From Candidatus Limnocylindrales bacterium (GTDB lineage Bacteria; Desulfobacterota; Binatia; UBA1149; CAITLU01): a stretch of DNA of 64,000 bases. The notes under the pieces are model-generated. The model had not been told where the DNA came from. It searched no databases and saw nothing but the letters and a program-made list of their open reading frames with translations. Positions within the stretch are counted from its first letter, which is position 1; each line of letters starts with the position of its first letter. This document shows positions 1-51,188 of the stretch, piece by piece. The position numbers and the translations under genes are program-made. The DNA is taken from the NCBI GenBank assembly GCA_035571835.1, contig DATNBU010000027.1, positions 124,001 through 188,000 on the forward strand. Direction: 5' to 3'.

Positions 1-2369
1 CAATCCTCCAGCACCACATCCGCGGCTTTCTCGCTGATCATCAGGATCGGTGTGAGAATGAAGTAGCCGGGTATCCTGGGGAACACCGAAGCATCGACGA
101 TGCGAAGGCCAGCGACTCCATGAACCCGGAAACGGCTGTCGACAACCGCAGAACGGTCGTGGAGCAGCGACGGATCGGACTGCCAGGTGTCGGATCCCAT
201 TCGGCAGGTGCAAGACGCATGATGGCCCCACGCCTGCGTGCGGATCCACTCTTCGAGCTCAGCGGACTTGTTTGCGAGATGCGATCCCGGCTGGATCTCG
301 CGGACGAACTTCTGCGGGTTGCGTGCGTTGACGTCGCGTATGAACTCGACGGCGTCCATGAGGGCAAGGAGGTCCCGCTTGCCATCGGTGCGGATCCTCT
401 CGATGTCGGCGATTCTGGACGCAAGATCGGCGGGCAGCTGTTCCCCCGAATCGCGATACGGTTTCGCCAGCGCCCCGAGCTCTGCCGCGTCCCGCTCGGC
501 TTTCTCATTGAAAGAATCGAAACAGATCTCCGGTTGAGCGAACGGATCCGATGAGCGAATCGTGACCTTTCCGCTGTTGTTCCGAGTGTACGCTTTGAGG
601 ATGATCCAGCTCCAGAGATTGCGCTGGTCCGTGGGTGCGCCGAGGGTCCGTCTCAGGAGCTCTTGCGACCATCGCCAATAGTATCCGCGAAATGCGGCCG
701 GGGCACCGAACGCAAAAAGATCCGGCTCAGGCCAGTCCGCAGGAAGCGCCTTCGAGCGTTTCAGAATCGCGAGGGTTCCACCGTTGGTGCGATAGAGACC
801 GTCACCGGTATTCATCCATTCCGTTCGCACCGGGTCATTCGCGTCGCCGGGTGTGAAGGTTGCCCCACGGAGCGTCGCGAATTCTTCGTCGAGCTCACTG
901 ATGACGCTTACCTCGTATCGGTCCTGCAGATTGCAGCCGACGCCCGGGAGGTTGATGCGTCGCGCGGATCCGTCCTCTGTGCGAAGGGGCAGACCATCAT
1001 GCCCGTGGAGTACGCATTCTTCGTCGCCGCGCGCTCCATCGCCGTTGCGAGCTGTCGCCTTGGCGAGATCCTGCACGTTTCCGATGCCGGAGAGATTCAA
1101 CAGTTGCGGCGTATTGAACGCGCCTCCGCACAGGATGACTTCACGCCTGGCAAAGTATCGGACTCGCGCGGAAGGCGGCGCCACCTGGAGAGGGCTTGCT
1201 TCGTAGAGATGAACGCCCTCGGCGGCTTCTATCCCGATCGCCCTGGGTTCCGAGTCCGTTTCCTTTTCCTCGAACAGCACGCGCGTCACGTGCGTTCGCA
1301 TCTTGATCACAAGGCGGTCCGGATACTCGTCACGTGTTTTCAGCACGAATTCCCGAACGCCTGCACGTCGACCTTTCACGCGAACGTCGGGTCGATCCGG
1401 GCTGTCTTCTGCGTCAATCCCGGTCGGAATCAGAAATGCACCTTCGGGGCTGGTTCTGCGCGTATTGGAGTCGTTGGGATCGATATGCTGAACGATGCGC
1501 AACGCCAGTAGCGAGCGCTTGAGCATGCCAACCAGCCGGTTGTCGCTGTGGAGGACGGCAAGCGCGGATTTCATCAGTAGTGAGACGAAATCCCGGTCGG
1601 TCTTCTGGATGCCTTCGATCAGCGTGGGATCGATGAAGCTCGTCGGCTGCCAGCCCTTGGAGCCGTGGCCGCCTTCATCCAGCACAGCCTTCGGATCGAA
1701 CAGGAGCACGATCCATTGCCAGAGATAGTAGATCGGCCCGAGCAGACGCTGGAACCACTTCTTGTAGTCGCGAACGTAGAGGCAACGCTCGAGGCGCGCG
1801 AAATACCCGCGCATGTTGCTCGCGCGCCACGATTCGTCGCCGGTAAGATCTGCAATGTAGTCCCAGTCGCGGTCGTTCGGGACTGCGACGATCATCGCGT
1901 GATGCGACGTGCAACCCCCCAGCGACGCGCTGCGCGGGTAGAGGATTCCCCCTTTGCCTCGTGCGCCCTGCGACTCTGGATCGAGAAAGCGTTTATCAGC
2001 GTTTAGTTTGTTGTATTTCTCATCTTTCTGCTGGCGCTGCGTATCGGAATAGTGCCGCACCGAGAACTGCCACGACACGGCCGGGTCTTCCGTCGCGGCG
2101 GCGTGGTACCCGGGGCAGCTGTATACTTCGCCGGGCTTGGCTTCGGGGTAGAGCGTGGACTTCTCGTGCGCGGGATCGGTGCCGGCCTCGATCAGAAGCA
2201 CGCTCCGTCCGCCGAGTACCAGGCGAGCAGCGAGTGGTCCACCGCCCGCACCGGATCCGACGATTACGTAGTCGAACGGGGTTTCCTGCGCGCTGCCCGC
2301 AAGACGAAGCAGTCTTTCGTTTTCGTTCTCCGTCGGCGGAGAGTTGGTATCCGTCTGTCCGTCGATCAT
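1..2369 (-). CDS. GMC-family FAD oxidoreductase (3' end beyond window)
   Basis: This is a flavoprotein of the glucose-methanol-choline/cholesterol-oxidase superfamily, which oxidises alcohols or sterols. The ATG at 2369 opens a frame that stays open to base 1, giving about 789 codons. The FAD-binding motif GSGAGGG is at residues 38-44. A mid-protein GMC stretch reads CGGAFNTPQLLNLSG. The C-terminal active-site region has HHASCTCRMG from residue 716, followed by VDSRFRVHGVAGLRIVDAS, typical of the GMC_oxred_C domain. Only a few C-terminal residues should be missing. It is long for the family (usually 500-600 residues), with extra sequence between the FAD and substrate domains. It starts 6 bp after the stop of the dihaem cytochrome gene, so the two are almost certainly co-transcribed and the cytochrome may accept its electrons (inference). 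The substrate is unknown; no signal peptide is evident. Confidence 0.88.
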   Translation of the reverse strand, partial: MIDGQTDTNSPPTENENERLLRLAGSAQETPFDYVIVGSGAGGGPLAARLVLGGRSVLLIEAGTDPAHEKSTLYPEAKPGEVYSCPGYHAAATEDPAVSWQFSVRHYSDTQRQQKDEKYNKLNADKRFLDPESQGARGKGGILYPRSASLGGCTSHHAMIVAVPNDRDWDYIADLTGDESWRASNMRGYFARLERCLYVRDYKKWFQRLLGPIYYLWQWIVLLFDPKAVLDEGGHGSKGWQPTSFIDPTLIEGIQKTDRDFVSLLMKSALAVLHSDNRLVGMLKRSLLALRIVQHIDPNDSNTRRTSPEGAFLIPTGIDAEDSPDRPDVRVKGRRAGVREFVLKTRDEYPDRLVIKMRTHVTRVLFEEKETDSEPRAIGIEAAEGVHLYEASPLQVAPPSARVRYFARREVILCGGAFNTPQLLNLSGIGNVQDLAKATARNGDGARGDEECVLHGHDGLPLRTEDGSARRINLPGVGCNLQDRYEVSVISELDEEFATLRGATFTPGDANDPVRTEWMNTGDGLYRTNGGTLAILKRSKALPADWPEPDLFAFGAPAAFRGYYWRWSQELLRRTLGAPTDQRNLWSWIILKAYTRNNSGKVTIRSSDPFAQPEICFDSFNEKAERDAAELGALAKPYRDSGEQLPADLASRIADIERIRTDGKRDLLALMDAVEFIRDVNARNPQKFVREIQPGSHLANKSAELEEWIRTQAWGHHASCTCRMGSDTWQSDPSLLHDRSAVVDSRFRVHGVAGLRIVDASVFPRIPGYFILTPILMISEKAADVVLED

Positions 2370-2375
2370 GGAAGC

Positions 2376-5300
2376 TCAGATCGTTTCCAGGAATGCGATC
2401 AGGGCATTCTTCTGGTCGTCGCTCAGTTTCTCGCCGAAGTAGTGCCCACGGTCGACGACGAAATCCGGCACTTTGCTTGCAGCCATCAGTGGTGCCCCGG
2501 CGATGTCGCTGAATACTTTGTATGCCTTGTCGCCCGTGAGGCCTTGCTTCCTGACCTCCGACATTCCACGTACGAGCGCCACGATTGCTGCGGGGAGCTT
2601 GTCGGTCTTTTCCGGGTCGATGTTCATCAGAAGGTTGACGGGTGTCCCACGCGGTAGTGGGCCGATTTTGATGCCGTCGTATTGTCCGTTGAGAAATCCG
2701 TGTACGAAGATGCCGGCGGCGAGTGTGGCCACCGAGAGCGTCGCGAAGACGCCTCGCGTAAAGACTCTCCATTCCTGACTCGTCAGCAGTAACCAGAGTC
2801 CGACGACGAGAAGCACGCCCACGGCAACCCACAGCCACAAGGACGACATCGACAGCAGCGTTTCCGCTCCGAGCATCATGATCGCCCCAGCCGTCGTACC
2901 GCCGTAACCGCCGGCCCCCGTCACACCGAGAACGACCGCCAGAACGATCGCGAGGGAAAGGACGAGTATGCCGACATGGCGAGCGCGGCCGCGCATCACG
3001 CCAACCACGAAAAATGCCGCCAGTGCGAGCCAGAGTCCCCAGCTCAGAAACCCGAATGCGATGCATCCGCCGACGCGACCGAGATACCCGGAAAGAATCC
3101 CGACGATCAGCGGACGGATGAACGGCGGAGCGAACGAAATCTCGCTGTCGTTTGGCAATCTGTAAATGAATCCCGGATCGCCCGCCGCCGGTTGAGGCAC
3201 GCCGCCTTTGCCGCTCGTGTCGTCGTCAGAACGCAGGTCGCCAGGGCGCCGGTATGGATCACCGGGCTTCGATGCACGTTCCTTGTTCCAGAGGAGCTTG
3301 CGAATGCCATCGTGGAACGCTTCGAGCCGACCTTTGACGGACGGATCGTGAGTGTAGATGCCCAGCTCGTTGTTGTGGAAATACGGAGCCGTGGCCCAGA
3401 CACTGATCAGTGACGGTGGACGCAGATATCCCGGCCCGCCCATTGTCCGGCCGTCGCTGTAGGTCGCGTTGTTCCCATACTCGTCGATCGCTGCTGCCGT
3501 GCTGTAAGGGTTGTAGTAACGAATTGCACCGACCGAAGGCAGTGCCTTGAACGAATCCGAGGAGAAATTGTCCCAGACCTGGCCGCTCATGGCGTTGGTG
3601 GCCATCGCGCGACCGGAATACGTGCCGACGAGCGTGATGGGAACGCGCAGCTCGTTCGACAGGTAGTTGTCCTTGAGGAATGGATCGGTCGCTTCGATAC
3701 TTCCGTCGGGTGCAGGTTTCAGCAGGTCATCGATCTGACGCAGCTGCCTGACGTAGTCATGGTAAGCCGGGCTGCGTTTGAACTTCTCCCAGTCGGCATA
3801 GTCCGACGGGAGTGTGTAGTGAAGGCGTGCCGGACCGTCGCCAGGAACGGGCGCTTTGTCCCACTCCACGTCGATCTTGCGACTGAAACCGAGGTCGAAT
3901 CCCCTCGGTTGCTTGCTCGAGTGACAGATCGCGCAATGGTCGATGAATACTTCGCGACCATTCCGGCGTCGCTCGTCGTCCGGCCCGAGCTCTGCGATGC
4001 CGGCATCACCTGCGTGCCGGAGAAGCATCGGTGCCGTGCTTTTTGGCCGGATGCCCTTGCTGCCGACCTGGAAGAAGTCCGCCATGTATTTGACGCGGTA
4101 ACGGTCGTTTACGTTCCAGTTGACCGAGTTGCTCAGGTTCGAAGCGACACTGAAGGGCCGCTGCGGCGTGAACCCGATGACGGGATTGTCGATTCGCAGC
4201 CACTGCTCGCCGAACAGGCCGATGTTCAGCGGTACTCGCGCGAGCGCCCCGAAGACGCCGACAGAGTCCTCGCCGGGAAATAAAACCGTCGCAAAATGCC
4301 GGTCTTTACTCGTGCTGCCGTTGTCCTCGAGGCTGCGCAGAAGGAGATTCGCGTCGCTCTGGCGCTCGGTAGGCTTCTCGAGCGCACGCTTCAGTCGCGC
4401 GGGAACGTCGAACACCGCGTTGATCACGTTCGTGTTGTTGATCTGGTCCGTACTGACGAGAGACGTGTCGATCGTCCCGGGCGCCTGGCTCCGAAGGAAG
4501 TGATACAGGAAGTTCGATCTCTGCAGGAGCGTGGCAAACGCCGGTTGTGGATCCCAGTACTGCCCGCCGATGATTCCGGACAGATTCTCCCATTCGGGAT
4601 GTTCCGGATCCGCGGGCGGGTTGAGAGGATGTGGCCCGATGTGGCAGAAACCGCACGACATGCTGACGCGGAAGGGACGCACCAGGCTCGGATCGGAACT
4701 GAGTGTCGAATCTATGTAGTACCGGTCGTTGGTGTCCTCGACTTTCTGCTTCCAATACTTGCGCGCCTCTTCAGCCGCTTCGGTATTCGCGAAGAAATCG
4801 GGATTGAGGAAAAGCCGCAATCCGAAAATGCCGCTCGGATAGCCGTAAACGGAGGGATCGAAACCGTCCTGTACGAGCTGTTTTCTTACGCGGTCCGGAA
4901 TGTAGTTGTCGAAGGGCTTCGGGTTGGACGGGTCGGCCTCCTTCTCGGTCTTCCACGGAGTGAAGAGCGGAGTGGGGTACTGTCCCGAATGCACCGGGCG
5001 TGGGACCGGCTCCCGCAACTCCCGGCCACGCGCATCGTAACGCTCGGCCTCGGCCTCCGATTGGTACGGATCGTACTGCGTCGACGGCTGGTAAGCTTGA
5101 GCATTGGTGGACGCGTCGTACGGCTTGTATCGGTTCGTTTCCGAATCCGCTTCCCGGTTGGGGTCGTATGGCTTGAGCAGCGCGGAGCCGGGCTTCTGCT
5201 CCTGGTCCAGATAGAGGCCGAGGATTTTCTTCTGCTTCTCCGTGGTGGACTTGAATCCTGGCTGATTGATCAGGCCCGTTCTTTTGAAACGAGTATCGCG

Positions 5301-5789
5301 CTGCCGCGAATCCAGCAGGATCATCAGATCTGTAAGCCCGTACCCCTCCTGCTGCAGCCAGTTCCAGAACACCTCGTCGCCTGCACCCCACACCAGCCAC
5401 GTGTTGCGCCCGCGGATCGCGTTGCGTTCCTCGTTGTCGACAACGCCATCGCCATTCTCGTCGAAATCGATCGGCTCGAGCTTACCCTCTTTGGGATCCC
5501 AGACCTGATCCATCTGCCAGAGCAGATCGCGGGGCTCGGCTGGAAACGTCGCAACCAGCTTGTCCATGACCTCCTTCGGATCGTCACCGGACGCCTTGAT
5601 CCCTCGCTGCGTGACGGGAGTACCGTGAAGTGTCTTCTGCGAGAGTAGCTCGTCCCTGGCGTCGTCCGGCCCGCATCCGTAAAGCGTGAAGACAAACAGA
5701 AGCACGAACGCCTGTTTTCCGAGGCCGCAGATGTTCTGTCGCCGGCTGCGAGTTGTGCTGCGTCCCGATGTTTCCTGACTACGCTTCAT
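2376..5789 (-). CDS. Large dihaem c-type cytochrome lipoprotein with internal membrane segment
   Basis: A 1137-residue protein. The ATG at 5789 is preceded by GGAG and is followed by a basic N-terminus, a hydrophobic stretch and a lipobox-like LYGC with Cys39, so it is probably an exported lipoprotein. An EF-hand-like DENGDGVVDNEE lies near residue 106. Two haem c sites are visible: CGFCH (379-383) and CAICH (619-623). The region after the second haem (GGPGYLRPPSLISVWATAP) recalls the dihaem peroxidase/MauG/rubber-oxygenase RoxA superfamily; the membership is by resemblance only. Residues about 890-1035 are strongly hydrophobic, with four or more membrane spans. A soluble tail follows that ends in LSDDQKNALIAFLETI, the usual last helix of a cytochrome c domain. 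It lies between a lipase and a GMC oxidoreductase and probably acts in periplasmic oxidation of a hydrophobic substrate or in electron transfer from the GMC enzyme. Confidence 0.85.
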   Translation of the reverse strand: MKRSQETSGRSTTRSRRQNICGLGKQAFVLLFVFTLYGCGPDDARDELLSQKTLHGTPVTQRGIKASGDDPKEVMDKLVATFPAEPRDLLWQMDQVWDPKEGKLEPIDFDENGDGVVDNEERNAIRGRNTWLVWGAGDEVFWNWLQQEGYGLTDLMILLDSRQRDTRFKRTGLINQPGFKSTTEKQKKILGLYLDQEQKPGSALLKPYDPNREADSETNRYKPYDASTNAQAYQPSTQYDPYQSEAEAERYDARGRELREPVPRPVHSGQYPTPLFTPWKTEKEADPSNPKPFDNYIPDRVRKQLVQDGFDPSVYGYPSGIFGLRLFLNPDFFANTEAAEEARKYWKQKVEDTNDRYYIDSTLSSDPSLVRPFRVSMSCGFCHIGPHPLNPPADPEHPEWENLSGIIGGQYWDPQPAFATLLQRSNFLYHFLRSQAPGTIDTSLVSTDQINNTNVINAVFDVPARLKRALEKPTERQSDANLLLRSLEDNGSTSKDRHFATVLFPGEDSVGVFGALARVPLNIGLFGEQWLRIDNPVIGFTPQRPFSVASNLSNSVNWNVNDRYRVKYMADFFQVGSKGIRPKSTAPMLLRHAGDAGIAELGPDDERRRNGREVFIDHCAICHSSKQPRGFDLGFSRKIDVEWDKAPVPGDGPARLHYTLPSDYADWEKFKRSPAYHDYVRQLRQIDDLLKPAPDGSIEATDPFLKDNYLSNELRVPITLVGTYSGRAMATNAMSGQVWDNFSSDSFKALPSVGAIRYYNPYSTAAAIDEYGNNATYSDGRTMGGPGYLRPPSLISVWATAPYFHNNELGIYTHDPSVKGRLEAFHDGIRKLLWNKERASKPGDPYRRPGDLRSDDDTSGKGGVPQPAAGDPGFIYRLPNDSEISFAPPFIRPLIVGILSGYLGRVGGCIAFGFLSWGLWLALAAFFVVGVMRGRARHVGILVLSLAIVLAVVLGVTGAGGYGGTTAGAIMMLGAETLLSMSSLWLWVAVGVLLVVGLWLLLTSQEWRVFTRGVFATLSVATLAAGIFVHGFLNGQYDGIKIGPLPRGTPVNLLMNIDPEKTDKLPAAIVALVRGMSEVRKQGLTGDKAYKVFSDIAGAPLMAASKVPDFVVDRGHYFGEKLSDDQKNALIAFLETI

Positions 5790-5856
5790 TGTTGATTGTT
5801 CTCCGCATCTCGCTCGTTGGTCCGTGGTCTGGGCCGGTCGGGCGGCCGCCAGCCGT

Positions 5857-6981
5857 TCACAACTCCGAGAGCCGATCGAACAGCCGCCGATAGAAGCGCC
5901 GCTGTGGTTTGATCTGATCAGGCTCGGGGAAAAGTACGATGTCTCCGTGGTCGGTGTGTTCGACAATCTCGTGATACCAGCGACCTGGAGACGTGCTCGA
6001 GAGATCGCTGATCGGGCCGCCAACCGGATGATTGCCGCTGATGCGTGGGTAGAGCTGCGAATAGACCGAAACGAGCCCGTCGTTGTGCCACCAGTCGCTG
6101 GCGCGGAACTCCGGATAGAACGGATGCGCATACGACGCCCGACCCATGTAGAAAGCGGTCGGGAACAGGAAAGGATTCATCCAGAATTCCGGATGATGGT
6201 ACCCGCCGAACAAGCCCTCCGCGGTCTGCTCCGTGGCGTAGGAGAAGTAGAATGTGTCTGGATTTGTCCGGCACACGGCGTTCTGCTCGAGCAATGCCTG
6301 GATGGTCAGGCTGTATGCGCCGTGATCCCTGCCTCGAAACATGGGAGAGCGTGCGAGCTGAGCCATCAGCCGATCGAGCGGCTGGCCCGAATCGATGCCC
6401 CATTGATCGAGCTGGAAATCGTAAAGACGGTCGAAGAGGTCTCCCGCCACTCGCACCTGCAGCTCGATCGCACTCGACAGGAAGTGCCCGATGCTGAAAT
6501 CGTGCAGCAGACCGGTTCGCTCGTCTGCCCCGAAGAAGTAGGTAGCCGTGCTGCCGTTCAATACTCCCGAAATGCTGGTGAGCGACTTGACCCAGTTCGC
6601 ATTCGATCCCCAGCCGAAAAAATCGCTTGCGAGCAGATGCTGCAGCAGCCAGATCGTCGGCGCACCCATGCTGTGTCCGACCAGGTGCACCGGGTTGCTT
6701 TCGGACCACTGCGGATGAAACGGCGTGGAGTATGTGCGTCCGAACTGGGAATGTCCCTCGGTGCGCGCGTGGGCGCTTCCAAAATCGACTCGTCCGCCTT
6801 TGATCTGATAGGCGAGCTCGCATGCCCGGTCGTGTGAGCTGCTGACGGGGCCGAGCATCGCGACGAACTTCCGGAGCGTAGTGTTCAGCTTCTGTGCGAC
6901 GCCCCAGTACGGGAGACCGAAGAGCTCGTCCGGGCCCCAGCCAAGCAACCCAGGTACCAGAATGACGGGATGATCGTTCAT
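5857..6981 (-). CDS. Alpha/beta-hydrolase lipase (staphylococcal/Geobacillus-like)
   Basis: A 374-residue hydrolase. It begins MNDHPVILVPGLLGWGPDE, the N-terminal oxyanion-hole strand of true lipases (VPGLLGWG). The nucleophile elbow GHSMGA has Ser104. The opening and the stretch YWGVAQKLNTTLRKF recall family I.5 and staphylococcal lipases acting on triglycerides or other esters. The later segment VEHTDHGDIVLF probably carries the catalytic His, and an Asp upstream completes the triad (inferred). No obvious signal peptide is present, so its location is unclear. It starts 16 bp after the PhoD-like gene stop and lies 67 bp upstream of the cytochrome gene, inside a four-gene minus-strand unit. 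The exact substrate cannot be read from sequence. Confidence 0.85.
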   Translation of the reverse strand: MNDHPVILVPGLLGWGPDELFGLPYWGVAQKLNTTLRKFVAMLGPVSSSHDRACELAYQIKGGRVDFGSAHARTEGHSQFGRTYSTPFHPQWSESNPVHLVGHSMGAPTIWLLQHLLASDFFGWGSNANWVKSLTSISGVLNGSTATYFFGADERTGLLHDFSIGHFLSSAIELQVRVAGDLFDRLYDFQLDQWGIDSGQPLDRLMAQLARSPMFRGRDHGAYSLTIQALLEQNAVCRTNPDTFYFSYATEQTAEGLFGGYHHPEFWMNPFLFPTAFYMGRASYAHPFYPEFRASDWWHNDGLVSVYSQLYPRISGNHPVGGPISDLSSTSPGRWYHEIVEHTDHGDIVLFPEPDQIKPQRRFYRRLFDRLSEL

Positions 6982-6997
6982 CGTCGGCGTTCCGCGG

Positions 6998-8704
6998 CTA
7001 CCATCGGGCGAGAGGCAGGACGTTCGTATCCGTGTAACCTTCGTCTTTCCCTGTAACGCCGAGAAGTTTTCCGTTCCTGTCGAAGTATTGGACGGTCAGC
7101 GCGCTCGTAGGCCGATCGACGTAGATGCGGCAGAAGTTGTCCTCCTGCGTATAGGCCCACGACGTGTAATGCATCTCGCCATCGTTCAGAGGAAAGACGT
7201 CGAACTGACCCGGAGCCCGCGAATCGTGGACGTAGTTGTTCGGATCGCCGTCGGCAAAGGGAAATGGCCAGTAAAACGCGGACGAGGTTATGTCGTACAG
7301 ATGTAACCCAAGCGACCTGGCTGCAGGCTGTTTCGCATTCACCTCGATTTCCATGCGCGCAATGTTTGCGCAGTGAATGTCTCCGGTCAGAAAAACGACA
7401 TTCTCGATGTGATTGTCGACGATGTGCTGCAGGATGGCCTGTCGTGTGCGCGGATACGCCGGCCACGAATCGCTGTCTCCCCTGCGCTTTTCATTTCCTC
7501 TGAAAAGATTTGGAACGCCCTCGCCCGAAAGGCGCTCGTCCATCGCGTTTGGAGCGAAGACGCTCGAGGAGCCGATGAACTTCGGAACATTACCGCGCAG
7601 CTTCTGCTGGTCGCTCAGCCAGTTGAGCAGCTGCTGCAGCTGACCAAGATGCTGCCGGTCGATTTGCGGCCGGCCAAGCATGTGGTTGTCTTCGAGTCCC
7701 TCGGCATCATCCTTGAAGCGCTGCGTTCGGGTATCGAGTACAAAGAACGGATAACCTCCACAGTCGAATTTGTAATAGAGAAGCCGTCCCCACGTACGAG
7801 GGCTGTGACTCCACTCGTAGCTCATGTAGGCGCCGATCGCGTAGTTGAAAAGACGATGCTTCCCGGCATCCCGCAGTTGATCCTGCGTCCAGTTGTCTTC
7901 GATCTCGTGGTCGTCGAGCATCATGTATGTCGGAGATGTGCGCAGCAGACGCCGCATGTTCGGCGAGCCGAATGCGGTCTGGTAGCGCTCCTGGAATTCC
8001 TCGTACGTATCGGCGCGCCCGACGGGTAACAGGCGGTTGAGCGTATCTGCGTACACCTGATCGCCGATCATCAGTGTGAAGCGCGCGGCGTCCGGTCCGC
8101 TGTCGAAATGCGACAGCATCGGTCCGAAAATGCGGTCGGCTTCCTTTATCTTCCAGAGCAGACCCGGGTACCTGCACGAACCCAGAAGGAACGAGACCTT
8201 GTCCTGGATACTGTCTTTGTCGGGGAAAGTGCGGAACGTGACTTCGTAGTCGTCCAGTTCCTTGCCGAGGAGCATGTCCTGGATGTTCTCGATGTCGGGA
8301 AGACGCTTTGCGATCTCCGCATCGCTCGGCGAGTCGTCGTCCGGCCTCGGATCGTCGACCGAGAGAGTAGCCATGCGGACGACATACTCGCTATCCGGCC
8401 TGAGCTTGTACGGCTTGTCTATCTCGGCGGGCGCGACTCCGTCACTCTCGTGACGACCGAGCGCAACGTCCTCTCCGAGCGTAAATATACCAGTACGATC
8501 GAACTCGCGCTGCAGCCGAAAATAGTAAGCCTTGAGGATTTTCCTCTCACCAGAGAGCAGGCCAATGACACCGACAGTGCGCCGATCCGCAGCAGCGCTG
8601 CGTGCCAGATCCATTGGATTGTTCGCCTGGATCCACAGACGGCAGGAGCTCTCGGTCGTATGTCCGACGATGGGGCCGAGTCCCGGTGGGCGAAGTGCTG
8701 ACAT
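6998..8704 (-). CDS. PhoD-like alkaline phosphatase/phosphodiesterase
   Basis: 568 residues from the ATG at 8704, which was chosen because the protein then opens with MSALRPPGLGPIVGHTTESS, the usual start of cytosolic-form PhoD-like proteins. The frame is open further upstream, to 8929, but that sequence has no family character. Metallophosphatase motifs are visible: LGSCRYP, GDQVYAD (from residue 214), LDDHEIEDNW (about 264) and LTGDIHC (440-445), which bind the Fe/Ca centre in PhoD. It hydrolyses phosphomonoesters or diesters in the family. No Tat or Sec signal is seen with this start, which is unusual for PhoD itself. It is the first gene of the lipase-cytochrome-GMC run and is divergent from the metalloprotease at 9085. 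No strong Shine-Dalgarno precedes the chosen ATG. Confidence 0.87.
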   Translation of the reverse strand: MSALRPPGLGPIVGHTTESSCRLWIQANNPMDLARSAAADRRTVGVIGLLSGERKILKAYYFRLQREFDRTGIFTLGEDVALGRHESDGVAPAEIDKPYKLRPDSEYVVRMATLSVDDPRPDDDSPSDAEIAKRLPDIENIQDMLLGKELDDYEVTFRTFPDKDSIQDKVSFLLGSCRYPGLLWKIKEADRIFGPMLSHFDSGPDAARFTLMIGDQVYADTLNRLLPVGRADTYEEFQERYQTAFGSPNMRRLLRTSPTYMMLDDHEIEDNWTQDQLRDAGKHRLFNYAIGAYMSYEWSHSPRTWGRLLYYKFDCGGYPFFVLDTRTQRFKDDAEGLEDNHMLGRPQIDRQHLGQLQQLLNWLSDQQKLRGNVPKFIGSSSVFAPNAMDERLSGEGVPNLFRGNEKRRGDSDSWPAYPRTRQAILQHIVDNHIENVVFLTGDIHCANIARMEIEVNAKQPAARSLGLHLYDITSSAFYWPFPFADGDPNNYVHDSRAPGQFDVFPLNDGEMHYTSWAYTQEDNFCRIYVDRPTSALTVQYFDRNGKLLGVTGKDEGYTDTNVLPLARW

Positions 8705-43058: not shown

Positions 43059-43520
43059 ATGCCGGGTATCAGGACATTCGCGATCGTCTGCGCGACATCG
43101 CTCGTTGCGATGATCGCTATGGGTCCGATCACGGCTCTGATCGGCATCTCGCTGGAAAGCGGCCGTCCTCAGCTGGTCGGGATCGCAATTCTGTTTACCT
43201 TGTTCGTCGTGTTCGGCCTGAGCGCAGTCGCGCTCATGGTCAAGCTCGTGCTCTCGGCTCATGTTGCGGCCGGCAACGCCGACTCCCCGCTTGTTCGCGC
43301 GCTTCGAAATCACGAGACGGGCGTGATCGTGGCGTTCTGGAGCCTGATCGTTGTGGGACTCGCGCTTGCGGTTCCGGCAGCGATCCTCGACGGCGCGATG
43401 GGTCCCGAACCGGCGCGCCGACTTCACGAGTGGCTGCCGCCGGCCACCCGCCGAACATCCGGCAATGATCGACCCGCCGATTCCAGAGTCACGGCGAGCG
43501 CGCGAAGAATGTCTGCTTAG
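43059..43520 (+). CDS. Small membrane protein of unknown function
   Basis: 153 residues from the ATG at 43059; the ribosome site is weak. Three hydrophobic spans are visible: TFAIVCATSLVAMIAMGPIT, LVGIAILFTLFVVFGLSAVAL and VIVAFWSLIVVGLALAVPAAI. A basic, Ser/Arg-rich tail follows. No family was recognised; the start and the reality of the last 30 residues are uncertain. Confidence 0.6.
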   Translation: MPGIRTFAIVCATSLVAMIAMGPITALIGISLESGRPQLVGIAILFTLFVVFGLSAVALMVKLVLSAHVAAGNADSPLVRALRNHETGVIVAFWSLIVVGLALAVPAAILDGAMGPEPARRLHEWLPPATRRTSGNDRPADSRVTASARRMSA

Positions 43521-43680
43521 TGCCGCACGAACGGATGCTCCGCGTGCGAGGTTTCGGGGTAGAGGCGCCGATCGCGTCGCCGCCAGGAAATTCGCGGCAT
43601 CCCCCGGGACAGTGGCAATCCGTTCGATACCCTCGTCTGCGATCGAATGTTGTGCCGCATGACGACGGTCCAAGCGCGAC

Positions 43681-45834
43681 ATGAAGAAGACCGACGAGCT
43701 GGATGTCGGCGGCCGCCGCATCGCACTGTCGAACCTCGACAAGGTCCTCTACCCCGGCGGCAGGTTCCGCAAAGGGGAGGTCATCGACTTCTACATCCGG
43801 ATAGCCGACTGGATTCTTCCGCATCTGAAAGGCCGACCGGTAACGCTCAAGCGGTTTCCAGACGGCGTCACCGGTGAGGCGTTCTATGAAAAGGACGCAC
43901 CGGGATTCACGCCGCAATGGGTCCGGGTCGTTCCGGTCCCGCGTCGCGGCGGCGGGTCGCCGATCCGCTACATCGTCATCGACGACCTTGCGACGCTCGT
44001 CTGGATCGCAAACCTCGCGTGCCTCGAGATCCATCCGTTTCTCCACTGCGCCGGGAACCTCGAAAATCCGACGCACGTGGTGTTCGACCTCGACCCGGGC
44101 GAAGGCGCCGACATGCTCGCGTGTGCGCGAGTAGCGCTCGAGCTCCGCGAGCTGCTCGCCACGCTCGGGCTCGAATCGTTCGCGAAAGTGTCGGGCTCCA
44201 AGGGGCTCCAGGTCTACGTCCCGCTCAACCGCAGCGTTTCGTACGCAGTCACGGGTTCGTTCGCGAGAGCGGTAGCGAGACTGCTGCACGAGCGCATGCC
44301 GAAGCTGGTCGTCGCGGAGATGTCGAAGTCGCTGCGCACGAACAAGGTGTTCATCGACTGGAGCCAGAACACCGACTACAAGACGACCGTCGGCGTGTAT
44401 TCACTGCGCGCGAAGAGCCATTCGCCTTACGTGTCGATGCCCGTGCGGTGGGACGAACTGGTCGCTGCGGAAAAGTCGCGCGACGTGGCTGGGCTCGTAT
44501 TTTCTCCGGAAGCCGCGCTCGAGCGTCTGGCGTCGACCGGCGACCTGTTCGCGCCGGTGCTCGAAAAGACGCAGGAGCTTCCCCAGGAGATCATGCAGGC
44601 GTTCGCGGAGCGCCGCGCACCGACCCCGCGCCGCGCATCGTCGCTCGAGAAGTACCGCTCCATGCGCGACTTCTCGAAGACGAGCGAGCCGTCCGGCGAC
44701 TCCTCGCACGATCGCGCACTCCCGCGTGGAAGCCGGCAGGGAAGCCGCCGCCGGTTCGTCGTGCAGAAACACGCCGCCAGTCATCTGCACTACGACTTCC
44801 GCCTGGAGATGCACGGAGCGCTCAAGTCGTGGGCCGTGCCGAAGGGACCGTCCTGTACGAAAGACGAAGCGCGGCTCGCGCGCGCAACCGAAGATCATCC
44901 ACTCGAGTATTTCGACTTCGAAGGCATCATCCCGAAAGGCCAGTACGGCGGCGGCACGGTGATGGTATGGGACATCGGGACTTACGACCTCATCGAAGGG
45001 AATTACTACCGGGGATTTCTCCGCATCCATCTCGACGGGCACAAGCTGAAGGGCGAGTGGACGCTCAAGTCGGACGCGGACGACCGCCAGACGTGGCGGC
45101 TGATTCGCAGTGGTCCGTCCGCCTCGCCGGTAAGCGCCAGCTCCGACGACGAGTCGGTGCTGACCGGCCGGTCGATGCGTGAGATTGCCTCCGCCGCGGA
45201 TGCCGTCTGGCAGAGCAATCGCTCGAGTGACATCAGCAGCGTCGCCGCGAAGCCTTCGCGATCCGTCAATGGCAATCGACGCAGGAGGAAGGGCGGCGCT
45301 CCGGCGATGCAGCTGGACTCGCTTCCTGCTGCATCGATCGCATTCGTCGCCAAGCAGAAGGCGAGTACCTACGAATCCGGCCGGCGGTCGGGAGCGTGGG
45401 TGAAGCACAAGACGAGCCAGAGCCAGGAGCTCGTCGTCGGCGGCTATATTCCGGGCCCGGACGGTTTCGAGTCGCTGCTCGTCGGCCATTTCGAAGATCG
45501 AAAGCTCGTCTTCGACGGCAAGATCCGCAACGGGTTCGTGCCCGAGCTGCGCCGGAAAGTCTCACGCCAGTTCGCGCGTCGCGAAACTTCGGAGTGTCCG
45601 TTTGCGAACCTGCCGGAGCCGAAGAGCGCGCGCCGGGGGGAAGCCCTCACCAGCGATGTGATGAAACGCTGCCGCTGGCTTCGTCCGGACCTCGTCGCAC
45701 AGATCCAGTTCACCGAGTGGACGCGCGGCGGCCACCTTCGCCACGCACGCTTCGCGGGGCTCCGCGACGACAAGGATGCGCGCGACGTGGTGCGTGAAGT
45801 CGCGACGACGGCGCGACGATCGCGCAGTCGATGA
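43681..45834 (+). CDS. ligD: LigD-like POL-PE protein with truncated ligase domain
   Basis: 717 residues. The N-terminal primase-polymerase (POL) domain, about 1-290, carries the catalytic FDLDPG (Asp136/Asp138) and SGSKGLQVYVPL. The 3'-phosphoesterase (PE) domain starts near 355: VVQKHAASHLHYDFRLE, PLEYFDFEGIIPKGQYGGG. Between residues 475 and 545 is a low-complexity linker. From about 555 the sequence rejoins the ligase: FVAKQKASTYESGRRSGAWVKHKT (motif IV/V region) and then the OB-fold. Motif I (KxDG), with the Lys that takes AMP, is absent, and the ~200 residues of the adenylation domain are missing. It should retain polymerase/phosphoesterase roles in NHEJ but should not ligate. No Ku gene lies in the window. 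Confidence 0.88.
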   Translation: MKKTDELDVGGRRIALSNLDKVLYPGGRFRKGEVIDFYIRIADWILPHLKGRPVTLKRFPDGVTGEAFYEKDAPGFTPQWVRVVPVPRRGGGSPIRYIVIDDLATLVWIANLACLEIHPFLHCAGNLENPTHVVFDLDPGEGADMLACARVALELRELLATLGLESFAKVSGSKGLQVYVPLNRSVSYAVTGSFARAVARLLHERMPKLVVAEMSKSLRTNKVFIDWSQNTDYKTTVGVYSLRAKSHSPYVSMPVRWDELVAAEKSRDVAGLVFSPEAALERLASTGDLFAPVLEKTQELPQEIMQAFAERRAPTPRRASSLEKYRSMRDFSKTSEPSGDSSHDRALPRGSRQGSRRRFVVQKHAASHLHYDFRLEMHGALKSWAVPKGPSCTKDEARLARATEDHPLEYFDFEGIIPKGQYGGGTVMVWDIGTYDLIEGNYYRGFLRIHLDGHKLKGEWTLKSDADDRQTWRLIRSGPSASPVSASSDDESVLTGRSMREIASAADAVWQSNRSSDISSVAAKPSRSVNGNRRRRKGGAPAMQLDSLPAASIAFVAKQKASTYESGRRSGAWVKHKTSQSQELVVGGYIPGPDGFESLLVGHFEDRKLVFDGKIRNGFVPELRRKVSRQFARRETSECPFANLPEPKSARRGEALTSDVMKRCRWLRPDLVAQIQFTEWTRGGHLRHARFAGLRDDKDARDVVREVATTARRSRSR

Positions 45835-45933
45835 GCGTGGATCCGGCCGCGGCCGGTCGAGCCATCCGAGTCCGGCTCGACTCCGTTTCGCACGCGCGTT
45901 CCCTGGCGATAAGGTCCAGCCGGGAGGAGCCGG

Positions 45934-47835
45934 ATGACGGCTTTCGGGCAGACCCTCAAAAGCTCCAACGGTGTACCGACCGCGCTGCTGATCGCGGCGG
46001 TTGCGACGACGGCGATCGTCGTCATGCGCTGGCTGCTCGATCCCTGGCTCCCTGGCCAGTTTCCATTCGTGACGACCTTCTCTGCCGTTGCAGCGGCGGC
46101 CTACTACGGCGGGTGGCTGCCGGCGTTGCTGTCGGCGGTGTTCGGCTTCATTGCTTGCGGGCTGCTGTTCACGCCGCTCGCCCAGGCGACGCCGGTGCAG
46201 CAGCAGCTAGTGGGATTCGGCGTGTACGCCGTGACCTGCTCGGTACTGATCATCCTTGCGGAAGCCACGCGCAACGCACAGCGAGTCATGCACGCCGAGC
46301 ACGAGCGGCTCAGCACGACGCTGGCAAGCATTGGCGACGGCGTGATCACGACGGACGCCGATGCGCGCGTCATCTACCTCAACGGTGTGGCCGAGGCACT
46401 TACCGGCTGGACGCAGGCGGACGCCGCGGCTCAGCCGCTCGAAGACGTGTTCGCCGTCATCAACGAGCACACGCAGCAGAGGATCGACAACCCGGCGACG
46501 AGCGCGCTGCGCGAAGGCGCAATCATGGGACTCGCAAACCATACTGTGCTGCTGTCGAAAGATGGCCGTTCGATCCCGATCGATGACAGCGCCGCGCCGA
46601 TCCGCGACCGCAGCGGCCGGGTGGTCGGCTGCGTGCTGATCTTCCGCGACGTCGCCGAAAAAAGGCGCGCCGACCGCGAGCTCGCCGAATCGCGGGCCAA
46701 TCTGCAGGCGGCCGACCGGCGCAAGGACGAATTCCTGGCCACGCTCGCGCACGAGCTACGCAATCCGCTTGCGCCCATCCGCAACTCGCTGCAGATCATG
46801 CGGCTTGCGGGCGATGACAAGCCTGTCGTCGAACAGGCCGTTGCAACCATGGAGCGACAGGTCGACCAGATGGTGCACCTGGTCGACGATCTGCTCGACG
46901 TGGCCAGGATCAGCCGCGGCAAGATCGAGCTCCGGCGTGAGCGTGTCGAGCTTGCCGGAATCGTTCAGCAGGCCGTCGATCTTTGCCGGCCGCTGGCGGA
47001 GAACATGCGGCACGAGATCCGCGTATCGCTGCCGGCCGAGCCGCTCCACTTGCAGGCGGACGCGGTGCGCCTTTCGCAGGTACTCGGCAATCTGATCCAC
47101 AACGCGTGCAAGTACACGGAGCGCGGTGGCCGGATCGAGCTCGTCGCGGAGCCTCACGACGGCGAGCTCGTCGTCGCCATCAAGGATACCGGCATCGGAA
47201 TTCCGCCCGACATGTTGCCTCGCGTCTTCGAGATGTTCACGCAGGTCGACCAGACCCGCGAGCGTGCTCAAGGCGGGCTCGGCATCGGTCTTACGCTTGC
47301 GAAAGAGCTCGTCGAGATGCACGGCGGCACCATCGAGGTGCATAGCGAAGGTCGCGGGCGTGGAACCGAGGTCGTCGTACGGCTTCCGCTGATGGTCGAG
47401 CACCAATCGGGCCGCGAGCGTGTGCCGTCACAGCCGGGGCACACGTCGCCGGTCTGGCGCATTCTCGTCGTCGACGACAACGAGGACAGCGCGGAATCGT
47501 TGTCGATGCTGCTCAGGCTGCAGGGGCACGATTCGAGCACCGCGCACGACGGGCCGAGGGCCATCGAGCTTGCCGAGCAGATCCGGCCGGAGCTCGTGCT
47601 CCTCGATATCGGGCTTCCGCGCATGAACGGGCTCGAGGTGTGCCGCCGGATTCGCGAGCAGGCCTGGGGCAGGACGATGATCGTCGTCGCGCTCACCGGC
47701 TGGGGGCAGGAGGAAGATCGCCTCCGGTCGAAAGAAGCAGGGTTTGATCATCACCTGGTCAAGCCGGTGCAGTTTGCGGAGCTGACCAGGATGATCGCGT
47801 CGCTGGCAGTGGCGCCGTGCACGCCGCCGGGGTAA
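45934..47835 (+). CDS. Hybrid sensor histidine kinase (DUF4118-PAS-HK-REC)
   Basis: 633 residues; the ATG at 45934 has GGGAGGAG upstream. The N-terminus has 3-4 membrane spans of the KdpD-type DUF4118 domain (LLIAAVATTAIVVMRWLLDP, SALLSAVFG-type helices). A PAS domain covers about 130-250 (LASIGDGVITTDADARVIYLN). The dimerisation/phosphoacceptor helix has His273 in AHELRNPLAP, then the ATPase with NLIHNACKYTERGG, DTGIGIPPD and GLGIGLTLAKELV. The C-terminal receiver has ILVVDDNEDSAES and phosphoacceptor Asp558. The signal is unknown; no separate response regulator is adjacent. Confidence 0.92.
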   Translation: MTAFGQTLKSSNGVPTALLIAAVATTAIVVMRWLLDPWLPGQFPFVTTFSAVAAAAYYGGWLPALLSAVFGFIACGLLFTPLAQATPVQQQLVGFGVYAVTCSVLIILAEATRNAQRVMHAEHERLSTTLASIGDGVITTDADARVIYLNGVAEALTGWTQADAAAQPLEDVFAVINEHTQQRIDNPATSALREGAIMGLANHTVLLSKDGRSIPIDDSAAPIRDRSGRVVGCVLIFRDVAEKRRADRELAESRANLQAADRRKDEFLATLAHELRNPLAPIRNSLQIMRLAGDDKPVVEQAVATMERQVDQMVHLVDDLLDVARISRGKIELRRERVELAGIVQQAVDLCRPLAENMRHEIRVSLPAEPLHLQADAVRLSQVLGNLIHNACKYTERGGRIELVAEPHDGELVVAIKDTGIGIPPDMLPRVFEMFTQVDQTRERAQGGLGIGLTLAKELVEMHGGTIEVHSEGRGRGTEVVVRLPLMVEHQSGRERVPSQPGHTSPVWRILVVDDNEDSAESLSMLLRLQGHDSSTAHDGPRAIELAEQIRPELVLLDIGLPRMNGLEVCRRIREQAWGRTMIVVALTGWGQEEDRLRSKEAGFDHHLVKPVQFAELTRMIASLAVAPCTPPG

Positions 47836-50028: not shown

Positions 50029-50814
50029 TCAGGTGTTTCCAGTCTGCGCTTTTCCCCGCAGGCGGATGGCCTCTCGCCGGGCTTCGATCTGATCCGGGCG
50101 TACGTTGCGATTGGTCTCGGCGCAGACGCGGGCTTCGGTCCTCAGCGACTCTGCGAAGCTCTGCGCGTAGCCGTCGTCGATCAGGCGTTTGTAGGCAGCC
50201 AGGCATTCCGGCTCGAGAGACAGCATGTCTGCGGCGAGGCGGCGACAAACCGGAAGCAGATCCTCGGGCTCGACGACGCGGTTTACCAGACCCCAGTCTG
50301 CTGCCTGCGCGGCGCTCAGAAAGTTGCCGGTCAGCGAAAGCTCCTTTGCACGGTAGATGCCGATCGTACGCGACAGTTTCTGCGACAGGCCCCATCCCGG
50401 GAGGATTCCGACGCGCCCGTGCGTGTCGGCGAACCGGGCTTCGGTGGAGCACACAAGCACGTCGCAAGCGATCGCGAGCTCGAAGCCTCCGGTAATCGCG
50501 ACGCCATTGATCGCAGCGATGACCGGACCCGAAAACTGTCCAATCGAGCGAACCGGATCGGCTGTTTCGACCGTCCCCTGAACCGAGTCGGTGCCGCCGC
50601 CGAGCTCTTTCAGATCCAGTCCGGCGCAGAACGCGCGGCCTTTACCGGTGAGGATCGCAACGCGCACGTCCGGGTCCGCTTCGAGCTCTGCAAACGTTTC
50701 CGCGATCGCTCCGCGCAACTCCCGTGACAGCGCGTTCATGGCATGAGGGCGATTCAGAGTGACGAGCGCGAGGCCGTCGGCCTTGTCGACGAGGATTACA
50801 GCGTCTGATGTCAT
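50029..50814 (-). CDS. Enoyl-CoA hydratase/isomerase family protein
   Basis: 261 residues from the ATG at 50814, with AAGGAA upstream. Crotonase-fold motifs: VTLNRPHAMNALSREL, the oxyanion hole sequence AFCAGLDLKEL, and AAINGVAITGGFELAIACD. Glu in GFELA is kept; the position where Glu164-type hydratases carry the second acid reads HGRVGILPGWG, so it may be a hydratase lacking one catalytic acid or an isomerase/hydrolase. It acts on acyl-CoA in beta-oxidation-like pathways. Confidence 0.88.
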   Translation of the reverse strand: MTSDAVILVDKADGLALVTLNRPHAMNALSRELRGAIAETFAELEADPDVRVAILTGKGRAFCAGLDLKELGGGTDSVQGTVETADPVRSIGQFSGPVIAAINGVAITGGFELAIACDVLVCSTEARFADTHGRVGILPGWGLSQKLSRTIGIYRAKELSLTGNFLSAAQAADWGLVNRVVEPEDLLPVCRRLAADMLSLEPECLAAYKRLIDDGYAQSFAESLRTEARVCAETNRNVRPDQIEARREAIRLRGKAQTGNT

Positions 50815-51188
50815 TGCGGATTCCTTTCCAGCCGGAGTGGATTCGATGAGACCGATGTTGCGACGGTAGCACCAGTGCTGCGTTCGAGCCACGGCATGAA
50901 CACCGCGCCGGTCCGCCGTATAGCGAGCCCGTCGGGACGGCTAAGCCGCCGCCGGCGGAGTTCATGCGAGCATCTCGGCAGCACGTTTACGAGATGCCAG
51001 TGAGCGGCAATCGCGCATCCGTAGAATAAAAATCATTCTCCCATGTGACTGCAGACACTTCGCATTCGCCGCAGCCACAGGTTTGGTGATTCCGCTTACA
51101 TGTGAACCGAGTTTTTTGTCCGTCGGCACTTCCATGGGATCCGGCCGGCAGGAAGGATGCGCTAGCGATATCATCGGAGGTGACTACA
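50815..51188. other. Divergent intergenic region, enoyl-CoA hydratase / GH19 lysozyme
   Basis: 374 bp. It contains an AT-rich island at 51023-51039 (AGAATAAAAATCATTCT, a 5-bp palindrome around an A/T centre) that could hold a promoter or regulator site, and the GGAGGTGA ribosome site at 51176-51183. There is no convincing gene. Confidence 0.45.

Follow-up and report, generated by a model that had tools for sequence, protein, structure and literature searches.

What does a LigD-type gene amount to once the core of its ligase domain has gone, and did that core disappear in the organism, through a real deletion or incipient decay, or only in the assembly? The question is raised by one gene in the window, by which we mean the whole stretch of 64,000 nucleotides that was analysed. 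It is a single frame that stays open through to the gene end, and its parts are as follows:

43681-45834, + strand: LigD-type ORF of 717 aa, with the order POL-PE-(no NTase core)-OB, in a single open frame
43771-44550, + strand: POL (LigD_Prim-Pol), residues 31-290, Pfam E 4.3e-83
44764-45066, + strand: PE (LigD_N), residues 362-462, found by Pfam and matched by several PE structures
45112-45336, + strand: low-complexity linker, residues 478-552, poorly conserved (42% identity to relative G005 over 478-548)
45340-45357, + strand: deletion junction, GCATTCGTCGCCAAGCAG, where four relatives have 157-160 extra residues
45346-45411, + strand: remnant of the NTase domain (end of motif IV and motif V), residues 556-577, from the alignment with relatives
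45463-45774, + strand: OB-fold (DNA_ligase_A_C), residues 595-698, Pfam E 1.5e-19, with the R and K of motif VI kept

The POL domain matches the POL structure of M. tuberculosis LigD, 2iru, at E 5e-59 (phmmer), and D136, D138, S173, K174 and D226 are found in all six class members of its lineage, the window protein included; the Asp residues among them (D136, D138, D226) we take to be catalytic. The PE domain keeps the equivalents of Q40, H42, H48, D50, R52, S61, E82, H84 and Y88 (9/9), in the numbering of section 8 of PMC8656161; H42, H48 and D50 among them are Mn-binding. The protein also scores above the cut-offs of the NCBIfam models for POL and PE, TIGR02778 and TIGR02777, and from its sequence both domains should still be active. 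On the ligase side, Pfam does not find DNA_ligase_A_M (PF01068, the adenylation family of ATP ligases) in the 717-aa protein, the LIG structures 6nhx, 6nhz and 1vs0 match residues 555-706 only, and the scores stay below the cut-offs of the LIG domain model TIGR02779 (98.7 bits vs 227.75) and of the full LigD models TIGR02776 (346.5 bits vs 373.2) and PRK09632 (544.8 vs 989). Of the features by which a LigD can be judged, POL with its catalytic Asp and the PE residues are therefore in place, and an ATP ligase domain with the KxDG lysine is not. ORF translation and Pfam bear out the frame, coordinates and POL and PE motifs that an earlier note on this DNA had read from it. An AlphaFold2 model built on a five-row alignment had a mean pLDDT of 40.4 and was dropped.

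An alignment with five relatives locates the loss. The ligase part resumes at residue 556 (VAKQKASTYESGRRSGAWVKHK), right after a linker ending in LPAASIAF, which agrees with the restart near residue 555, behind a low-complexity linker, that had been proposed. Everything from motif I (KxDG) to the motif IV Glu is absent, the columns of the motif I K and D and of the motif IV Glu, which the relatives all carry, being gaps, and what is still present comprises the motif IV Lys, the motif V W and both its Lys, and the motif VI R and K; the motif names are those that we take to belong to these positions. The adenylation domain with its KxDG lysine is thus indeed missing, as claimed, nor does a KxDG motif occur in residues 475-555 of the translation, the region named beforehand as the one where its presence would contradict the claim. 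The size of the loss had been put too high, at about 200 residues: it measures 157-160 residues against G005, G141, G147 and G084 (161 against G005 with a slightly different breakpoint). Both the nucleotide pocket and the catalytic lysine belong to the NTase subdomain (PMC8656161), so sealing should be beyond the product; with the lysine of motif I and the Glu of motif IV gone, no ligase-AMP would form and hence no sealing by the protein alone would take place, so that nick sealing is expected to be absent. In the relatives, the two breakpoints lie in similar short sequences (TCATCG/TCGTCG-like) that share few bases, a similarity that would be compatible with a deletion between very short repeats.

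Is the loss ancestral or derived? Among 148 genomes of the class searched at E <= 1e-60, the POL-PE-LIG lineage occurs in six, the window genome (G000) among them. The ligase core is kept in all five others, with KxDG in each and PF01068 at all five places, so the loss looks derived, and the core-less form is known so far from one genome among these 6/148. Three of the five (G005, G147 and G141) are full length, G084 has a degenerate PE, and G040 is without most of it. In a phylum sample of 395 genomes, 15 matches were obtained at 1e-70, two of them being G000 and G005; of the 13 further ones, five loci were read (L070-L074, with L075-L082 left out), and all five have a K-x-D-G ligase part. 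The phylogeny points the same way. In a midpoint-rooted FastTree of 62 POL sequences, the window protein groups with G005 (0.958), then with L048 (0.904), then with G147, G141, G040 and G084 (0.958), which makes a clade of seven members at support 0.958. The ligase core is likewise seen in the seventh, L048, which comes from a Bryobacterales MAG (KFDGY, EGLIAK); its POL, PE and LIG parts lie in different frames (919-3590 +), so that either the gene itself is frameshifted or the sequence is. Identity between the window protein and G005 amounts to 72% in POL, 80% in PE, 42% in the linker and 65% in OB. An in-frame deletion, one of the two possibilities raised in the earlier note, is accordingly supported, given that the nearest relative, G005 of the same family, and four other class members all keep the core.

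Searches of mobile elements returned nothing of the core-less kind: no relative was found in the viral contigs searched, and 8 phage records gave partial matches, none covering 80%. In a plasmid survey, 60 rows were drawn from across 1042 matching records, and 25 of them cover at least 78% of the query with record spans of 2.3-2.6 kb; as about 2.1 kb would be expected without the core, no core-less form is apparent among these 25, as read indirectly from the spans. Many rows of the survey have a different domain order, and one of short span, H44, bears the annotation DNA ligase D with a length of 630 aa.

The genome holds other end-joining genes. A search for a separate ATP ligase and Ku, which had been suggested, returned PF01068 in three other places, once on contig C37 and twice on C12, and a single Ku, on C12, immediately before a LIG-POL gene. 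On the opposite strand of C12 there are PE, LIG and POL frames, the PE and LIG there being separate ORFs in overlapping frames (6633-8618 and 7640-8599, - strand, in L012, G000:C12:5000-24000). C37 carries genes for a 364-aa ligase, presumably LigC-like by its size, and for a 446-aa POL, and one match to an NAD ligase lies on C38. What the earlier note did not hold is that the window gene is an extra LigD copy, another NHEJ set sitting on a different contig. With the G005 core as query, the assembly yielded only three paralogues, of 34-41% identity, and the missing core was not found elsewhere in it. Three other ATP-ligase domains, a Ku and an NAD ligase make sealing in trans possible; the second possibility of the earlier note, a ligase supplied in trans, therefore has its components in the genome. 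That POL, PE, LIG and Ku are all present elsewhere in the genome is probably why the loss was tolerated.

We consider it likely that a real, lineage-specific in-frame deletion deprived an additional LigD copy of POL-PE-LIG type of its adenylation core and that the product, if used, is an end-processor whose ends another ligase seals. In such a scheme, POL would extend the ends by adding nucleotides, mostly ribonucleotides, PE would clean 3' ends, and a separate ligase would seal, the candidates being the NAD ligase, the LigC-like protein and, from the contig that carries Ku, LIG-POL or LIG. Enzyme activity, expression and the hand-over to a ligase in trans are what we infer here. LigC gives back-up ligation when the ligase domain of LigD is defective (PMC5124664), and PMC5663958 cites a figure of about 20% of DSBs for a LigD strain with a mutant ligase; both serve as precedents for trans-sealing. 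According to the latter paper, a LigC complex is not proven as back-up for LigD, and Prim-PolC failed as back-up polymerase.

Several observations speak against this reading: the gene is not beside Ku, no promoter was found, and the form is known from a single genome. In the window, no Ku was detected at E 1e-6 with ORFs of at least 120 aa from five relatives' loci as queries, both Ku of G005 included, and over positions 43400-46000 a simple scan for promoters found 0 against 0.3 expected by chance. The neighbours comprise a gene of the glyoxalase family, an ORF of 153 aa in which Pfam finds nothing, and a histidine kinase that carries a receiver domain. Synteny with the five relatives' loci was considered and rejected, for the only matches were the gene itself and antisense frames, histidine kinases (at one locus) and one weak match; this remaining flank match, 30% over 206 residues to window positions 50257-50850, is not counted as synteny. 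Two tandem Ku genes (L043, G005:C31:94000-109000, 4646-6371 +) stand directly upstream of the full-length POL-PE-LIG gene of G005, whereas no Ku was found in the window.

Might the gene simply be on its way out, the deletion being its first visible lesion and the protein being without a present role? Early decay of this kind is possible, if on the improbable side. It draws on the redundant modules elsewhere in the genome and on G001, the other genome of the same genus, which has no match at E 1e-60, the best being 40% identical. It draws likewise on two relatives in which PE has decayed or been lost for the most part. In G084 (L044, G084:C36:196000-210000, 5993-8455 +), 27/48 PE columns invariant in the others are changed and eight of the nine tested residues are replaced (Q40, H42, H48, D50, R52, E82, H84 and Y88, with S61 kept), the tested POL and LIG residues being intact. 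In G040 (L045, G040:C26:27000-41000, 4613-7744 +), QKHAARRLHYD joins the LIG linker directly and in frame, so that most of PE is gone. Finally, OB carries 13 unique changes in G000 vs 4 in G005 (chi-square about 4.8 by hand arithmetic, uncorrected for four regions), with 18 vs 13 in POL, 3 vs 3 in PE and 2 vs 6 in the linker; this hints at faster change in OB, and we count it against our main reading too.

However, the frame is open to its end, and dN/dS between G000 and G005 is 0.22 in POL, 0.15 in PE, 0.37 in the linker and 0.21 in OB, with dS of about 1 and thus near saturation. Moreover, at columns invariant in the others, the window protein is changed only in 0/89 for POL, 1/22 for PE and 1/44 for OB. 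Columns with gaps were excluded from this test, the PE set omits G040, in which not enough PE survives, and the gene of L048, which lies in several frames, entered as separate pieces. The corresponding OB counts are 1/44 in G005, 1/44 in G040, 3/46 in G141, 3/46 in L048, 5/48 in G147 and 7/50 in G084. The term 'orphan OB-fold', which the earlier note had used, is anatomically correct, but decay of OB is not seen at invariant columns. Under a simple neutral model (branch dS 0.4-0.8, 2.2 nonsynonymous sites per codon), the probability that at most 1/44 OB columns had changed is <=0.105 if 10% of the branch were neutral and <=0.0041 if 20% were, which makes so low a count unlikely had OB been unconstrained over more than about 10-20% of its branch. 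The single changed column means that either the loss is recent or OB is still used.

A broader reading builds on the same relatives. LIG or PE has been lost in 3/6 class members, as seen in their assemblies, the tested POL residues are intact in 6/6, and both G040 and G084 encode a further PE at another place in their genomes. One could picture the extra LigD lineage as being pared module by module to its POL core, LIG having been lost once and PE twice, with POL-PE-OB as a working end-processor that would hand ends to a ligase encoded elsewhere and OB kept for DNA binding; we put this forward tentatively and rather doubt it. Unlikely in our view is the notion that POL-PE-OB has settled as a form retained on purpose, in which OB and the motif V remnant would assist end processing by binding DNA or a partner. 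The conservation of OB at invariant columns, with the neutral-model probabilities just given, and the keeping of POL in all six class members would suit it. Yet a recent deletion accounts for the same OB conservation, no second case turned up among the 6/148 class genomes with the lineage or the 5 phylum loci read of 13, and OB would be isolated from the NTase domain on which it normally closes (PMC8656161). That the true gene is full length and that some 480 bp were lost in assembly is very improbable: the loss is known from one assembly only, but the reading frame is preserved exactly across the join, the gene occupies positions 167681-169831 within a contig of 236,207 bases, the few bases shared by the breakpoints are probably too short for the usual assembler collapse, and a search of the assembly for the missing core found only three distant paralogues.

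How does the protein compare with what is known? Its domain order is that of M. tuberculosis LigD (Rv0938), POL-PE-LIG (PMC5124664, PMC1378119), from which it differs in lacking motif I through the motif IV Glu and in that no Ku was found in the window. With its class relatives it shares the POL clade and, in the case of G005, 65% identity in OB and 72% in POL, but the five keep the KxDG core and the window protein does not. Proteins with end-processing domains and without LIG in the same chain are encoded likewise in Pseudonocardiales/Pseudonocardiaceae MAGs (L052, L053, L054 and L056), although their order is PE-POL and they have no OB remnant; in one of the four, L053, the same locus has a LIG match some 3 kb upstream. 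A scan of a genome contig collection returned 17 loci, and the four, from loci of this collection, were chosen for Pfam after showing PE without KxDG. Pfam on 8 ORFs from the collection's loci gave 4 PE-POL without LIG, 2 PE-LIG-POL, 1 POL only and 1 PE only, the last (L058) at a locus end. In Streptomyces, POL, nuclease and ligase are likewise not in one enzyme, but there they are separate genes (PMC5124664), whereas the window protein probably results from an internal deletion with OB kept. More generally, LigD domains vary by order and presence (PMC8656161), and in the census of PMC7719229, which has categories for LigD domains distributed among different proteins, 37% of NHEJ-positive bacteria carry several POL copies. 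In the limited collection of literature searched, the exact POL-PE-OB architecture with an internal deletion of the core was not found. LigD-type proteins without LIG and split POL, PE and LIG genes are already known, and the window protein is a variation on that modular family.

Taken by itself, the finding alters little of what is known of LigD. It describes a natural deletion by which, in a bacterial end-joining enzyme, end processing is uncoupled from sealing, and the genome concerned has ligases to spare. Whether stand-alone NHEJ modules act in trans was left open in a 2006 review (PMC1378119), and the window protein, paired with its full-length relative, would lend itself to a natural test of modules acting in trans.
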